DNA from: Fimbriimonadaceae bacterium
GTDB taxonomy: Bacteria; Armatimonadota; Fimbriimonadia; Fimbriimonadales; Fimbriimonadaceae
Reading direction: 5' to 3'
Assembly (NCBI GenBank): GCA_026129685.1
Contig: JAHCHO010000005.1
Location: 124,001 to 188,000, forward strand
DNA length: 64,000 nt
The notes under the pieces were generated by a model. That model saw only the letters and a program-made list of their open reading frames with translations, made no database searches and was not told the DNA's origin. Numbering within the stretch: the first letter of the stretch is position 1; every line of letters starts with the position of its first letter. Below, piece by piece: positions 53,667 through 63,948 of this stretch. The position numbers were made by a program, and so were the translations under genes.

Positions 53667-53741
53667 TGGTGGGCGGTACTGGATTTGAACCAGTGACCCC
53701 TTCGGTGTGAACGAAGTGCTCTACCGCTGAGCTAACCGCCC
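53667..53741 (-). tRNA. tRNA-Val (anticodon CAC)
   Basis: A complete cloverleaf is visible on the minus strand. The acceptor stem GGGCGGT pairs with ACCGCCC. The D arm contains TAGCTCAGCGGTAGAGC. The anticodon stem CTTCG/CGAAG encloses TTCACAC with anticodon CAC, reading GTG. The T arm CTGGTTCAAATCCAG carries GGTTCAAATCC. Discriminator A is followed by an encoded CCA. No second tRNA lies beside it. Confidence 0.95.
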
Positions 53742-53924: not shown

Positions 53925-54833
53925 CTAACCGACGGTCGCGTCCCTGCAACCCAGGTCGGCGAGCGTAGCGAGCCAGCCGCTGATGTCCGCGGGGCCGGCC
54001 GACTCGGTCGGGAGGCCCTGCTGCGTCATCCCGACGCGCGCTGCTTTGTCACGACCGAGCGCGTGGAAGGGCATGATGTCCAGGCCGTCGAGTTCGGGCA
54101 TCGTGCGGGCCAGGTCGGCAAGGCGCGCCAAGTGCGCGTCGGAGTCGTTCAGGCCGGGGACGAGCGGGCAGCGAAGACGGATGCGCGCGCCGGAGGCATA
54201 GAGGGCGCGCAGATTGCGCTCGATCCGTTTATCGTCGACGCCCGTCAGCCTCGCGTGCGCCTCCCCGGTCGCCTTGACGTCCCAGAGGAACAGGTCCACC
54301 CAGGGAGCCACGTCCAGGTAGTCGGCGAGGGGCGCATGGCCGCATGTGTCGAGGCAGGTATGAAGACCTTCGCGCTTGGCCAGCCGCAAGGTCTCCCGTA
54401 GGGCCTCGAACTGGGCCATCGGCTCGCCGCCGGAGATCGTCAGCCCGCCCCCGGACCGCTCGTAGTAGCGGCGGTCGCGCAACGCCAGCGACACGATTTC
54501 CTCGGGCCGCCACCAACGCCCCACGAGTTTGAGGGCGTCGGTCGGGCAATCGGACGCGCACCGTCCGCAGGCCAGGCAGAGGCGTCGTTCGAGCCGATGC
54601 GTCCCCGCTTCGACCCGATGGACGCCCTGGTCGCAGGTTTCCTCGCAACGTCCGCAGAAGGCGCAACGCTCCGCGTCGAACGAGAGTTCGGGTAGGGGAC
54701 GCTGGCTCTCCGGGTTGTGGCACCAGCGGCACTTGAGAGGGCATCCCTTCGTGAACACCGTCGTGCGGACGCCGGGGCCGTCGTTCAGGCCGGCGCGAAG
54801 GACGTCCATCACAAGGAGGCGAGCCTCAGGCAT
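53925..54833 (-). CDS. Glycyl-radical enzyme activating protein (radical SAM)
   Basis: Radical SAM activase of 302 residues that installs the glycyl radical on its partner. The S-adenosylmethionine cluster motif is Cys31-x3-Cys35-x2-Cys38 in FTKGCPLKCRWCHNPES. Between it and the barrel lie two ferredoxin-like cysteine groups (CAFCGRCEETCDQGVHR and CLACGRCASDCPTDALK). These mark the class with extra 4Fe-4S clusters, unlike the minimal PflA. GGLTISGGEPMAQFEAL is the conserved GGEP region. It is divergent from the enzyme gene at 54891 with only 57 bases between, so both are probably controlled together under anaerobic conditions. Confidence 0.93.
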   Translation of the reverse strand: MPEARLLVMDVLRAGLNDGPGVRTTVFTKGCPLKCRWCHNPESQRPLPELSFDAERCAFCGRCEETCDQGVHRVEAGTHRLERRLCLACGRCASDCPTDALKLVGRWWRPEEIVSLALRDRRYYERSGGGLTISGGEPMAQFEALRETLRLAKREGLHTCLDTCGHAPLADYLDVAPWVDLFLWDVKATGEAHARLTGVDDKRIERNLRALYASGARIRLRCPLVPGLNDSDAHLARLADLARTMPELDGLDIMPFHALGRDKAARVGMTQQGLPTESAGPADISGWLATLADLGCRDATVG

Positions 54834-54890
54834 CGAACCGAGTCTTGCAGATACCCGCGCGAACGTGCAACCGCACACCGAGGGACACCC

Positions 54891-57119
54891 ATGAGCGCCA
54901 CCGTTGCTCCCGCCCTTTCCCCTATCGTCGCTCAGGCGGTCTCCTTCACCGCCGCTTTCCGCGAGTTCGAGGACGCGCCGACGCCGATCCGCGAGGCGAT
55001 GTGTCTCCGGGCGCAGTATCCCGCCCGGATGGGCGATCTCCGGCCCGGTGATTCCTTCGCCGGACGCATGGCGTCGGGACGTTTGGCCTACGTTGGGACG
55101 ATCTGGTGGGCCGCTCCGCCGCGAACGGACCGTGGCGAGTACGCGCCCTGCAAGCAAGGCGGCTTCTGTTTTGGCTTCGGCCTGGCGGCCCGGTTGGCAG
55201 AGGACCCAATCCAGCGCGAAGCGGTCGAGGAACTCGCGGCGTTCTGGCGCGACCGATGCACGTGGTCCCGCTTCGAACGGTCGCTCGCCTCCGACGTGCG
55301 GGGGGCGGTCGCCCAGGAGGGGATGGTGCCCAGCGGCTCGAACGGCTTCTGCGTCGCGGTGAACGTGGACCGGCTGATCCGGTTGGGTTTGCCCGGACTG
55401 CGGGCCGAGGTCGCCGGCCGTCGGCGAACCGGAGCCGACCCTGCGTTCTACGAGGGGCTGTTGCTCGCTCTGGACGTGGTCGAGGAGGTGGTTCGGCACC
55501 ATCGGGACCAGGCGCGGGACATGGCCGAGCGGGATGCGGCCTTCCACCCGGTCGCAGAGACGCTGCAACAGAACCTGGAACGGGCGCCGGCGACTTTCCG
55601 CGAAGCGCTCCAACTGTTCTGGCTTTACACGCACCTCGTCTCGGGGCACCACCCGGAGGCGCACCGGCTGGACCAAGCCTTGGGCGACTTGTACGCGCGG
55701 GACGTGGACTCGGGGCGGTTGAGCGAGGAGGAAGCGGTCGGTCTGCTCGTCGCGCTCTGGCGCATGTTCAGCGAGAACGGCGCGGACGCCCTCTGCCGCA
55801 TCGTGATCGGGGGAATGGGGCGACGCAACGAGGCGAACGCGGACCGCTTCGCGCTCGCCGCGATGGAAGCGACCCGTAGGCACCGGGGGGTGACCCCGCA
55901 GTTGACCCTGCGCTGTTACGAGGGCCTGAACCCCAAACTGCTGGAGAAGGCGTTCGACTGCATCGCGGAGGGCTGCTGCTACCCGATGCTCTACAACGAC
56001 GAGGCGATCATCCCGGGCGTCATGCGCTCCATGCACCTTGACGAGGCGGCCGCGAGCCACTACTATCCCCTCGGTTGCGGCGAGTACATGGTGGGATGGG
56101 CCGGACCGAGCGTGCTTTGTTGCGGTTGGAACCTCGGCAAGACCCTCGACGCCGCTCTGCATCAAGGACGGTCCTCGGGGTTGGCGATCGGTCCCCCCAC
56201 GCCATCGGTCGAAGCGATGCCGACGTTTGAGGATCTCTACGCGGCGCTGATGGTCCACGTGCGCTTCGCCGCCGACGCCACCGCGCGGTACTACGCGACG
56301 GTGTTCGAAACGGTCCCCAAAGAGACGCCGTTCCTCCTGGCCAGCCTGCTCACGGACGGCTGCCTCGAGCGTGGCAAGGGCATCCTCGAGGGAGCGGACC
56401 ATCTGGGCGCCTGCGTGATGGGCCATGGCTTGACCAACGTGGCCGACGCGCTGGCCGCGATTCGGCGCGTCGTCTACCAGAAGGGCCTTTGCCCTCTGGG
56501 CGAACTGGTCCGGGCGCTCGACGCCGATTTCGAGGGCTACGCGGATCTGCGCGCCGCCTTACTTGCCGCCCCCAAGTTCGGCAACGACGAGGACGAAGTC
56601 GACGAGCTCCTGGTGCGCCTTTGGGACGACATCAACGAAGCCGCCGATGACGCCGGCCGCCGCGCGGGTCTCGGCTTCTTCACCGTCAGCAGCGTGAACC
56701 CCGGGGGCTACGCGATGGGAGAGGCGTGTCCGGCAACGGCGGACGGGCGGCGAGCCGGCCGACCCTTCGCCATCGGCCACGCGCCGACCGCCGGGATGGA
56801 CCGTAACGGGATCACGGCCCTGCTGAATTCGGTCGCCAAGGCCGGCCCGGCGAACGGTGGTGCGACGACGAACGTGAAGGTCAGCCGTGAGATGTTCGCC
56901 CACGCTCGGCCCAAGGTCGAGGCCGTTTTCGACGCGTACTTCGCCGCCGGCGGGCAAGAGGCCACGATCACCGTCGTGAGTCGGAACGATCTCGAGGAAG
57001 CCATGCGCGAACCGGAGAGGTTCCCCCACCTCCTGGTGCGCCTCGGCGGCTGGTGCGCGCGGTTCGTCGAACTGAGCCGCGACGTCCAGGAGGAGATCGT
57101 TCGGCGGACGCTCTACTGA
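54891..57119 (+). CDS. Glycyl radical enzyme of unassigned class (PFL-like)
   Basis: Protein of 742 residues of the pyruvate formate-lyase/diol-dehydratase superfamily. The radical loop near the C-terminus reads LVRLGGWCARFVELSRD; Gly720 should carry the radical (canonical form R-V-S-G-Y). The active-site loop is YYPLGCGEYMVGW with Cys396 and Glu398, i.e. GCGE rather than the GCVE of dehydratases and decarboxylases or the adjacent Cys-Cys of pyruvate formate-lyase. The sequence GCGEY is seen in an uncharacterised group of such enzymes. The reaction is therefore unknown. ATG at 54891 with GAGGGACA upstream. No microcompartment genes are seen. The activase is divergent at 54833. Confidence 0.9.
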   Translation: MSATVAPALSPIVAQAVSFTAAFREFEDAPTPIREAMCLRAQYPARMGDLRPGDSFAGRMASGRLAYVGTIWWAAPPRTDRGEYAPCKQGGFCFGFGLAARLAEDPIQREAVEELAAFWRDRCTWSRFERSLASDVRGAVAQEGMVPSGSNGFCVAVNVDRLIRLGLPGLRAEVAGRRRTGADPAFYEGLLLALDVVEEVVRHHRDQARDMAERDAAFHPVAETLQQNLERAPATFREALQLFWLYTHLVSGHHPEAHRLDQALGDLYARDVDSGRLSEEEAVGLLVALWRMFSENGADALCRIVIGGMGRRNEANADRFALAAMEATRRHRGVTPQLTLRCYEGLNPKLLEKAFDCIAEGCCYPMLYNDEAIIPGVMRSMHLDEAAASHYYPLGCGEYMVGWAGPSVLCCGWNLGKTLDAALHQGRSSGLAIGPPTPSVEAMPTFEDLYAALMVHVRFAADATARYYATVFETVPKETPFLLASLLTDGCLERGKGILEGADHLGACVMGHGLTNVADALAAIRRVVYQKGLCPLGELVRALDADFEGYADLRAALLAAPKFGNDEDEVDELLVRLWDDINEAADDAGRRAGLGFFTVSSVNPGGYAMGEACPATADGRRAGRPFAIGHAPTAGMDRNGITALLNSVAKAGPANGGATTNVKVSREMFAHARPKVEAVFDAYFAAGGQEATITVVSRNDLEEAMREPERFPHLLVRLGGWCARFVELSRDVQEEIVRRTLY

Positions 57120-60289: not shown

Positions 60290-60547
60290 CCACGGAAAGC
60301 ACTTTTCGACAAGGGGGATTCGGGCGCAGTGCGCCGATTTTCATACGCGCGCGAACGGAGAGCGGGCTGCGTCCCGCGCCTCTCCGAACCCCGGGGGACG
60401 GCCCTGCCGGAACTGGAAGGGCGACGGCTTCTCGACCCGCCCGAAGTCCCGGTTCGGGCCAATGCGGACGCGATCGGCAGGAATCGTTCCCGACGAGGCG
60501 AAGGAAGCACCGTGGACCAGGCAACGGCGCCGACGCCCCACACCGCC

Positions 60548-63067
60548 ATGCGACCGACCCGCATCGTCCTCGTCCTGCTGAACGTCCTGCTCGGTTCCTT
60601 GTGCGCCTTGGCGCAGAACGCCCCGCCCGACCCGGACCTCCTGAATCCGAAGAGCGAGGCGGCGCGCAAGTTGCGCGACTCGATGGCGACCCCCACGAAC
60701 GATTGGCCGGGCTACCTACCCGTGTCGGAAGAGGACAAGAAGCGGCCGAAGGTCAATCTGCGGTTCGTCGTGTGGGACGGCGAGGAGGGGCGCCCGGTGC
60801 TGCAGAAGGCGGTGCGCGAGTTCGAGAAGCACTACCCCTGGATCAAGGTGAAGTTCGAGGGGGTCAGCCAGAACTTCCAGGAGAAACTCCTGAACCAGGT
60901 CGCGGGGGAGTGCGCACCGGACGTGGCGATGATGGACATGAACGGCTTCAACCGTCTGGCCAAGCGTAACGCCATCTACGGGCTGAACGAGTTCATCGCG
61001 AAAACGCCAGGTTTTAACCTGAAGGGCTACTACAAACCGCTGGTAGACGCCCATAGCTTTCGGGGCGAGGTCTACGTTCTGCCGCGAGACATCGCCCCGA
61101 TCGGCATCATCTACTACAACAAGGAGCTGTTCCGCAAGGCGGGAATCCCGTATCCGGACGGCACCTGGACCTGGGACTTCAAGCCGCGCCCGGAGTTGCG
61201 CGAGAAGTGCTTCACCTGGGTGATGCAGCAGCTCACCAAAAAGGACAAGAACGGCAAGGTCCTGCAGTACGGGTTCGCGTCGGGCTGGCCGGGCGCGTTC
61301 CTCGATACCCTCGTGTTCTCGCAGGGCGCGCGCTACGCGGACGACCCCGAAGAGCCGACCAAGGTGCTGTTCGACGACCCCCGCGTGGTCAACGCGGTGC
61401 AGTTTATGCAGGACATCATGCTCAAGGAGAAGTGGTTCCCCTCTCCGACCGAGCTGAGGTCCGGCTTGCAGGCGAGCGCGCACCTCCTGTTCGCGCAGGG
61501 GCGGCTGGCGATGTACGAAGTCGGCATCTGGGAGGTCCCGGCCTTTCGGCGCGAACTGGTTCCGGGCAAGCCGGAGTTCTTTGAGTGGGACATCGCCCTC
61601 GCCCCCGCCTACAAGGACGGCGGACGCGGCGCGCCCACGGGTGGGTCCGGCTACTCGATCCTGAAGCAGACGAAGCACCCCTGGGAGGCTTGGTTGCTGA
61701 CGATGTGGATGGCGGGTCCGCCGGGGATGGCGGCGATGGCGAACGCGGGGATCGCCCAGCCGGGCATTCGGGCGCAGGCGCTTCAAGAGCCGTGGACGCC
61801 CGGCCCCAACACGCCGAAAGAACAGGCCTATCCACCCAGCCGGATCGTCACCGACGAAGCGGTGCCGTACGTCGTTTTCAACCCGACCTCCGACCTTTGG
61901 CCGGAGGTCGTCTCGCACTTCAACAGCCAGCAGGACTCGGTTTGGCTCGGAATCATCGACGCGAAAGAGGCGATGAGAATCGCGACGGAGCGCTCACAAG
62001 CCCGCCTCGACGTGTTGCGCGCCGAACAGCGCCTGCCCAGGGCCAACTGGCTTCTCGGCGGGGCGATCGGGCTGGCGCTCGTCGGCGGAATCCTCGCTTG
62101 GGTCTACTTGCCGGAGCGAAAGGTCCGACGCACCGCGAAGGAGAAGCACGAAAGCCGGATCGCCTATGGCTTCCTCATGCCTTGGTTGCTCGGGATGCTG
62201 TTCTTCACCCTCGGCCCGATGATCCTCAGCTTGCTGATGAGCTTCATGGACTGGGACGCGATCACGCCGGCGATGTACCGGGGAGTGAAGAACTACGTCG
62301 AGCTCGGCACGGTGGACCCCTGGTTCTGGAAGTCGCTCCTCGTGACCTCCATTTACACGGTGGTCGCGGTTCCGCTCGGACTGGTGATCTCGCTGGCCCT
62401 CGCCCTTCTTCTCAACGTGAAAGTGGCGGGGATGCCGCTCTACCGGACCTTCTACTATCTGCCGTCGCTGGCGAGCGGCGTCGCGTCGGCGCTCATCTGG
62501 CGGCGGGTGTTCCAACCGGAAGGGGGTCTCCTTAACACGCTGATCTACGGCCCGGACGGGAACTGGAACTTCCTCGGCATCGCCTCCCTGCTCAAGACGG
62601 TTTCGCCGGACGGCCCGGTGAACTGGCTCGGCAACGAAAAGACGGCCTTGGCCGCATTGATCCTGATGTCGGTCTGGGGAGCGGGGGGCGCGATGCTCAT
62701 CCTGTTGGCGGGCCTGCAGGGCATCCCCCAGCATTACTACGAAGCGGCGACGATCGACGGTGCCGGTCCCTGGACGCGGTTCAAGTCGGTCACGATCCCG
62801 CTCCTGTCGCCCTCGCTTCTGTTCTGCCTGATCACCGGCTTTATCGGCAGCTTCCAGGTGTTCACCCAGTCCTTCATCATGACGAGCGGCGGACCGAACG
62901 GGGCCACCCTCTTCTACATGCTCCATCTCTACAACCAGGCCTTTATGAGCATCCGCATGGGCTACGCGAGCGCGATGGCCTGGGTGCTGTTCTTCGTGAT
63001 CCTGATCTTCACCGTGATCCAACTGCGCCTGACCAAGTACGTGTACTACGAAGCGGAGGCGAAATGA
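60548..63067 (+). CDS. Sugar ABC transporter: substrate-binding protein fused to MalF-type permease
   Basis: A single chain of 839 residues combines two usual subunits. After a signal peptide ([18 protein letters not shown]) residues about 55-490 form a solute-binding protein of the maltose/oligosaccharide type ([58 protein letters not shown]). A membrane segment ([20 protein letters not shown]) leads to a MalF-like permease with [40 protein letters not shown] and the EAA loop [20 protein letters not shown]. The binding domain is thus tethered on the outer face. A GTG at 60512 with AAGGAAG upstream is an alternative start. It forms an operon with the MalG-type gene. Confidence 0.93.
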
Positions 63068-63948
63068 ACGCCCCCGTCACCGCCAAGGAATACGATCGCG
63101 TCGCCAAGCGATCGACCCGTGTCGGCGTCGTGATCAAGACGATCGTGCTCGCGATCCTGTTCGCCGGGGCGGTCAGCTTCATGGTGCCGTTCTGGGTGAT
63201 GCTCGTGATGAGCTTCAAATCGCCCGGCGAAATCGTGGTCTCGAGCGCGTGGTCCTGGCCGAAGGCGTTCACCTGGGACAACTTCAACCAGGTTCTCACC
63301 AGCCCGAACGTCAACTTCCTGCTGTTCTTCCGGAACTCGCTGTTCGTGACGACGTGCGTCACGGTGGGGGTGACGGGTTCCTCGGCGGTGGTGGCCTACG
63401 CCTTTGCTCGCCTCAAATTCGCGGGCCGCGATCGCCTGTTCCTCATCCTGCTGTCCACGATGATGCTGCCGGGGGTCGTGACGATGATCCCGAGCTACGT
63501 CATGTTCGCGAAGCTGCACTGGGTCAACACGTTCCTGCCGCTCACCGTGCCGGCGTTCTTCGGGGGCGGGGCCTTCAACATCTTCCTCCTCCGCCAGTTC
63601 TATATGGGGATTCCGCGTGAACTCGACGAGGCGGCCCTGCTTGATGGGGCGACGCACTGGCACATCTTCAGCCGTGTGATCCTGCCCCTCTCGGGCCCCG
63701 CCTTGGCCACCGTCGGCGTGTTTTGCGTGATCGGCACCTGGCGCGACTTCATGGGGCCGTTGCTCTACCTGAACGATCCCGATCTCCAGACGCTGGAACT
63801 GGGCCTGCAGACCTTCCGTGCCCTCAACGACGAGCGGTGGAACCTGCTGATGGCGGGGTCGGTCCTCGTTTCGATCCCCTTGATCCTGATCTTCTTCGTC
63901 GGACAGCGCTTCTTCGTGAAGGGCATCCAGATGACGGGGGGCAAGTAG
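63064..63948 (+). CDS. Sugar ABC transporter permease (MalG type)
   Basis: Second permease subunit, 294 residues with six membrane segments. Typical parts: VPFWVMLVMSFKSPGEIVVS, YAFARLKFAGRDRLFLILLS and MIPSYVMFAKLHWVNTFLPL. The EAA loop is GIPRELDEAALLDGATHWHI, which contacts the ATPase. Its ATG overlaps the preceding stop (ATGA). The ATPase is not in view; many such systems share one MsmK/MalK-type ATPase encoded elsewhere. The substrate is probably an oligosaccharide or glycoside. Confidence 0.94.
   Translation: MNAPVTAKEYDRVAKRSTRVGVVIKTIVLAILFAGAVSFMVPFWVMLVMSFKSPGEIVVSSAWSWPKAFTWDNFNQVLTSPNVNFLLFFRNSLFVTTCVTVGVTGSSAVVAYAFARLKFAGRDRLFLILLSTMMLPGVVTMIPSYVMFAKLHWVNTFLPLTVPAFFGGGAFNIFLLRQFYMGIPRELDEAALLDGATHWHIFSRVILPLSGPALATVGVFCVIGTWRDFMGPLLYLNDPDLQTLELGLQTFRALNDERWNLLMAGSVLVSIPLILIFFVGQRFFVKGIQMTGGK

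Follow-up and report, generated by a model that had tools for sequence, protein, structure and literature searches.

Glycyl radical enzymes (GREs) perform hard anaerobic chemistry, and their functions diverge at roughly 40 to 50% identity (PMC11528403). The 64,000-nucleotide stretch of Fimbriimonadaceae DNA analyzed here (hereafter the window) encodes an oxygen-sensitive GRE, P0002, with a GCGE catalytic loop and a Trp next to the radical Gly. A first-pass annotation read these features as signs of novelty and held that none of the known reactions was implied. We asked where in the superfamily this enzyme belongs, and which reaction it may catalyze.

An intact GRE-activase gene pair

The P0002 gene is free of internal stops, and its product matches the Pfam families PFL-like (291 bits) and Gly_radical (65 bits; cut-off, 22). 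A genome-wide search revealed it as the sole PFL-like/GRE gene of the 3.94-Mb genome. As in other members of the superfamily, a radical-SAM activase (P0001) is encoded nearby and scores above the TIGR02494 cut-off (Table 1). The annotation of this locus as a GRE-activase pair was thus borne out by the intact reading frame, the Pfam matches, the motifs, and TIGR02494. The pair is far beyond chance, with a closest relative 59% identical over the full length and motifs kept in dozens of relatives. The annotation had also taken the 57-base divergent spacing as evidence of a dedicated pair. Spacing alone is insufficient for this, and the pairing stands instead on adjacency conserved across relatives: an activase is present at 65 of the 83 relatives' loci with usable flanks, at a median distance of 18 bases.

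Table 1. Features of the GRE locus (window coordinates)
Feature	Position	Strand	Basis
Cognate radical-SAM GRE activase P0001, 302 aa	53925..54833	-	TIGR02494, 281 bits (cut-off, 174)
Ferredoxin-type insert of activase, two auxiliary 4Fe-4S motifs	54528..54677	-	Fer4/Fer4_21 matches
CX3CX2C of activase (SAM-binding 4Fe-4S cluster)	54720..54743	-	Translation
Divergent intergenic region between activase and GRE, 57 bases	54834..54890	.	
GRE P0002, 742 aa	54891..57119	+	ORF, Pfam, NCBIfam; AlphaFold2 pLDDT 92.2, pTM 0.92
Arg303, clade-diagnostic (GDH Asn341 position)	55797..55799	+	R in 47/47 clade rows; N or T in 8/8 references
Cys loop G395-C396-G397-E398 (thiyl Cys and Glu of C-X-E)	56073..56084	+	Aligned with GDH C433/E435
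Gly loop R717-L718-G719-G720-W721 (G720, predicted radical site)	57039..57053	+	Aligned with GDH G763

The pair is flanked in the window by genes for tRNA-Val, a GNAT acetyltransferase, a 5′-nucleotidase, FabF, and ACP, the last two identified by eye from their translations. A sugar-type ABC transporter is encoded at ∼60.3 to 63.9 kb, 3.2 kb from the GRE gene, with opposite-strand genes in between. None of these neighbors names a pathway. The transporter corrects one detail of the earlier statement that no microcompartment, dehydrogenase, or transporter sits beside the enzyme. A PF00936 search found no bacterial microcompartment (BMC) shell gene in the whole genome. Within the transporter locus, the ORF at 60329-63067 (+) combines an ABC solute-binding domain (PF01547) with a permease domain (PF00528) in an apparent fusion, followed by a second permease gene at 63064-63948.

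Catalytic motifs of the GRE and its activase

The Cys loop of P0002 reads YYPLGCGEYMVGW, and its C396 (codon 56076-56078) is the conserved thiyl Cys of the barrel fold, as indicated by alignment with C433 of glycerol dehydratase (GDH) and by the fold match. C, G, and E of this loop are invariant in 47/47 clade sequences of the active-site alignment. C396-G397-E398 conforms to C-X-E, the conserved feature of GRE eliminases (PMC8473560). GCGE is therefore an ordinary eliminase loop with Gly as X, rather than the sign of novelty it had been taken for. The inactivity of the IslA E470Q mutant (PMC8473560) supports the role of the C-X-E Glu. In the Gly loop, RLGGWCARF, G720 (codon 57048-57050) precedes W721. 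The radical Gly is invariant in all rows of the active-site alignment, and Trp follows it in 7/7 subclade rows. Since the accepted GRE fingerprint is RVXG[FWY] (PMC11528403), RLGGW deviates only by Leu for Val, and Trp in place of Tyr falls within published variation. Trp at this position also occurs in unrelated GREs (L161, L164, and L021). We considered and rejected the idea that GCGE or Trp is unique to the window GRE; they are signatures of a clade and of a subclade, respectively.

The two extra 4Fe-4S sites noted earlier in the activase are indeed present, but they do not argue for novelty, since most GRE activases carry auxiliary Fe-S clusters (PMC11528403). The ferredoxin-type insert is shortened or devoid of cysteines in 7 of 65 GCGE-clade activases (L051, L052, L063, L069, L098, L109, and L128), and the auxiliary clusters of this clade were apparently lost several times independently.

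The GCGE clade and its Trp subclade

Scanning of genome contigs with an alignment of five relatives yielded 80 loci. All but one of these (L092) have the GCGE loop, and the 79 are distributed over about a dozen phyla that include Bacteroidota, Bacillota, Ignavibacteriota, Spirochaetota, Verrucomicrobiota, and Planctomycetota. In an IQ-TREE phylogeny of 39 proteins, the GCGE sequences form a clade with 100/100 support, subtended by a branch of 1.13 changes per site; CutC, HypD, YbiW, PflD, pyruvate formate-lyase (PFL), and GDH all fall outside it. A larger FastTree phylogeny, built without GDH, agrees with this placement and brings two Clostridia GREs into the clade, one of them with a GCTE loop. 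P0002 displays the full clade signature, i.e., GCGE together with Arg303, Gln337, Asn603, and Gly719.

The R[LV]GGW motif of the window enzyme occurs at six loci, which share 59% (L055, Planctomycetota), 54% (L056, Lentisphaerota), 51% (L057 and L058, Paenibacillaceae), 47% (L059, Verrucomicrobiota), and 46% (L060, Verrucomicrobiota) identity with it. This Trp subclade is also supported at 100/100, on a branch of 0.47 changes per site. Nearly all clade loci without Trp have R[VI]GGF, and another genome of the window's own phylum (G218) carries a copy, split across two contigs and 45 to 55% identical to the window enzyme, that reads RVGGFTARF. GCGE is thus diagnostic of the clade, within which the Trp motif singles out a rare subclade. 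Around Paenibacillus YN15, the Trp form was detected in 2 of 147 genomes, which added only one close member (93%) to the subclade, and there was one more distant match. A search of the open literature, i.e., outside subscription journals, for GREs with GH130, anhydrofructose, or polysaccharide-utilization loci retrieved no description of this clade. The GCGE clade is distinct, and we found no biochemical characterization of it; its fold and superfamily are already known.

Comparison with characterized GRE classes

P0002 is 20 to 27% identical to the CutC, HypD, YbiW, PflD, GDH, and PFL references. As the one clade member compared with the NCBIfam equivalogs, it scored far below every GRE cut-off, with 180 bits for CutC (TIGR04394; cut-off, 1050) and 193 bits for HypD (NF043068; cut-off, 1100), and it also failed the HpsG and HpfG equivalogs. 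Reference proteins run likewise passed their own cut-offs (CutC, 1683; HypD, 1450; PflD, 1311; and PFL, 1244 bits). GDH, propanediol dehydratase, benzylsuccinate synthase, and isethionate lyase had no NCBIfam equivalog among the matches and were compared through PDB sequences and folds, with GDH alone among the four placed in a tree. YbiW and PflD, 27% and 25% identical to P0002, lie outside the 100/100 clade. The clustering check proposed with the annotation, run here with the tree, NCBIfam, and PDB, therefore places P0002 in none of the characterized classes tested.

Searching the PDB with the clade profile gave the highest scores for GDH (454 bits), CutC (436 bits), and propanediol dehydratase (428 bits), followed by arylacetate decarboxylase (346 bits), hydroxyphenylacetate decarboxylase (HPAD; 248 bits), and PFL (136 bits). 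Taken together with the C-X-E loop, these scores argue for an eliminase-type reaction, so that the claim that no known reaction is implied was too strong. In a phmmer search of the PDB with P0002 itself, YbiW-type sequences were the best single-sequence matches (E 5e-60; 27% identity). YbiW as the closest enzyme was set aside, however, because the profile and fold searches favor GDH with others tied. We thus name no single closest characterized enzyme.

Predicted fold and active site

The AlphaFold2 model of P0002, computed with 47 clade sequences (Table 1), was searched with Foldseek and aligned with VIA-align. GDH ranked top (Z 37.2; rmsd 2.3 over 697 residues), followed by propanediol dehydratase (Z 36.9), with CutC, PflD, HypD, and YbiW also within about 2 Z units of the top. 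Active-site geometry was judged from alignment alone, at positions that we take, from the GDH structure 1r8w, to be those of the active site. C433, E435, G763, and the radical-loop Arg of GDH are retained across the clade. Clade-wide changes are V434 to G397, N341 to R303, P641 to N603, Ser/Asn to Q337, and Ala to G719. The pair His164/Asp447 of GDH is replaced by Cys154 and Leu409 in P0002, and the clade has mostly G/S/C (one E and one D) at the first position and P/L at the second. CutC has Asp at the GDH 164 position.

The B12-independent glycerol and 1,2-propanediol dehydratases (1r8w, 5i2g, and 9rco) thus resemble P0002 in fold (Z about 37), C-X-E loop, and glycyl radical domain, but differ from it in overall sequence (23 to 26% identity), in the residues just described, and in the genomic setting, which in the case of P0002 lacks BMC shell genes. 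YbiW and PflD cleave C-O bonds of anhydro-hexitol phosphates, which are sugar-derived ethers (PMC12441222); the PDB titles of 8id7 and 8id0 fit this activity. These ring-opening enzymes of 1,5-anhydroglucitol-6-P and 1,5-anhydromannitol-6-P share the C-X-E loop and a likely carbohydrate substrate with P0002. However, they keep His at the GDH 164 position and occupy a separate branch of the tree, and neither PTS nor FsaA genes were seen next to the P0002 gene. CutC (choline TMA-lyase) and HypD (trans-4-hydroxyproline dehydratase) have the eliminase class and C-X-E loop in common with P0002, at 24% identity.

Residues found only in the Trp subclade are W721, H254, H512, S407, M510, and G606. H254 falls in the loop that bears H281-S282 in GDH, and pairwise alignment with YbiW pairs SGHH of the window enzyme with NGHS. 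The subclade may have acid/base residues of its own. Loss of the His164/Asp447 pair, as judged from the alignment, speaks against an eliminase in so far as it would leave protonation of the leaving group without explanation.

Gene neighborhoods of the relatives

At nine loci in three phyla (Planctomycetota, Verrucomicrobiota, and Bacteroidota), a GH130 gene lies 50 to 300 bp upstream of the GRE gene on the same strand, and a divergent AraC regulator is encoded within 263 bp of it at 28 loci. ABC sugar transporters, SSF symporters, Gfo/Idh/MocA proteins, GH92, GH38, GH42, sulfatases (named by eye), and AraC/LacI regulators are recurrent neighbors. Within the Trp subclade, a secreted GDSL-GH16 protein is encoded directly upstream of the GRE gene at the two verrucomicrobial loci (L059 and L060), a GH16 gene separates GRE and activase in Lentisphaerota (L056), and a Paenibacillaceae locus contains an ABC sugar transporter and a heparinase-like gene. 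In successive 2.5-kb bins within 10 kb of the GRE genes, the density of carbohydrate genes was 13.6, 18.2, 15.0, and 11.3%. Because this trend is weak, with no clear fall with distance, the association may be partly genome background, and the carbohydrate context is moderate evidence for the substrate class. Other genes near GCGE GREs are ADP-ribosylglycohydrolase-like (L075, L103, and L052; PF03747 in L075) or, at seven other loci, nucleoside-hydrolase-like.

Proposed function and alternatives

On balance, we somewhat favor the reading of P0002 as a radical β-eliminase of a sugar, polyol (sugar alcohol), or small glycoside. Two observations suggest a carbohydrate-type substrate: relatives sit in carbohydrate-catabolic operons, and the pocket is unlike that of the diol, choline, or hydroxyproline enzymes. 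Following the steps usual for GREs, the activase would use SAM and its 4Fe-4S cluster under anoxia to place a radical on G720, which would transfer to C396. The resulting thiyl would abstract a hydrogen from a substrate C-H bond, and E398 would deprotonate the neighboring hydroxyl. The β-substituent would then be expelled and the hydrogen returned; the leaving group is most probably a hydroxyl or an ether oxygen. More tentatively, and with doubt prevailing, the Trp subclade could be a distinct family whose radical elimination cleaves a C-O bond in a sugar or glycoside derived from polysaccharide. Its pocket would dispense with the His/Asp pair of the diol dehydratases and carry Arg303 and the subclade-specific His254 and His512 instead. 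If true, this would be a step of radical carbohydrate catabolism not yet described.

The strongest competitor, which we still regard as unlikely, is an eliminase whose substrate is a small molecule other than a carbohydrate, such as an amino-acid derivative, an amine, a sulfonate, or a simple diol, with the carbohydrate neighbors of relatives being incidental. The C-X-E loop and profile features fit this chemistry equally, no carbohydrate operon surrounds the window GRE, and the distance control is weak. Like the Arg residues of IslA (PMC8473560), the clade-wide Arg303 could also serve to bind a substrate that is anionic. It is, however, at odds with the tight same-strand adjacency of GH130 and GRE genes over three phyla, with the GH16-type genes adjoining the GRE within the window's own subclade, and with the failure of P0002 at the CutC, HypD, HpsG, and HpfG equivalogs.

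That the pair is a horizontally acquired relic, out of use in an aerobic host, is improbable. Such a view would accommodate the haem-copper oxidase encoded in the genome and the occurrence of the GRE gene in this genome only among the three of the genus. Both genes are intact, nevertheless, every catalytic residue is conserved, and GC and GC3 of the pair match those of the host neighbors.

Still less probable is a decarboxylase akin to those of arylacetate, indoleacetate (IAD), or hydroxyphenylacetate. These enzymes have a C-X-E loop too and share the superfamily fold, and the HPAD and IAD models match the C-terminal part of P0002 weakly. Yet the scores, 122 bits (NF033715; cut-off, 1150) and 162 bits (NF033718; cut-off, 1100), are far too low, the profile scores lie well under those of the eliminases, and no small-subunit gene accompanies the GRE. 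A PFL or a fumarate-adding synthase of the benzylsuccinate synthase type, for which superfamily membership alone speaks, is hardly conceivable given the single Cys with no adjacent Cys-Cys pair, 20% identity to Escherichia coli PFL, 70 bits for TIGR01255 (cut-off, 994), and neighboring genes among which no accessory subunit was seen.

Interest attaches to the clade as a whole, which spans those dozen or so phyla and is often encoded beside glycoside-catabolism genes. None of the solved structures searched is a close member of it. Characterizing one member (cultured strains include Paenibacillus and Clostridium asparagiforme) might uncover a radical step that is common in anaerobic sugar use.

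Distribution and origin

Beyond the genus, where one of three genomes has the gene, distant GCGE copies (about 36% identity) are found in two other genomes of the family. So patchy a distribution, and the fact that the best matches lie in other phyla, suggest that the GRE gene was transferred horizontally. No empty site is demonstrable in the two congeners, because their 5′-nucleotidase gene lies in a different context, without tRNA-Val, GNAT, or FabF genes alongside. The tRNA-Val (cac) gene at 53667-53741 (-) lies beside the activase gene, in an arrangement that the congeners do not share, and is a possible integration site. Between 25 and 33 first-look GRE candidates came from each of some other genomes in the window's phylum (e.g., G106, G128, and G275), which suggests large, unstudied GRE sets there.
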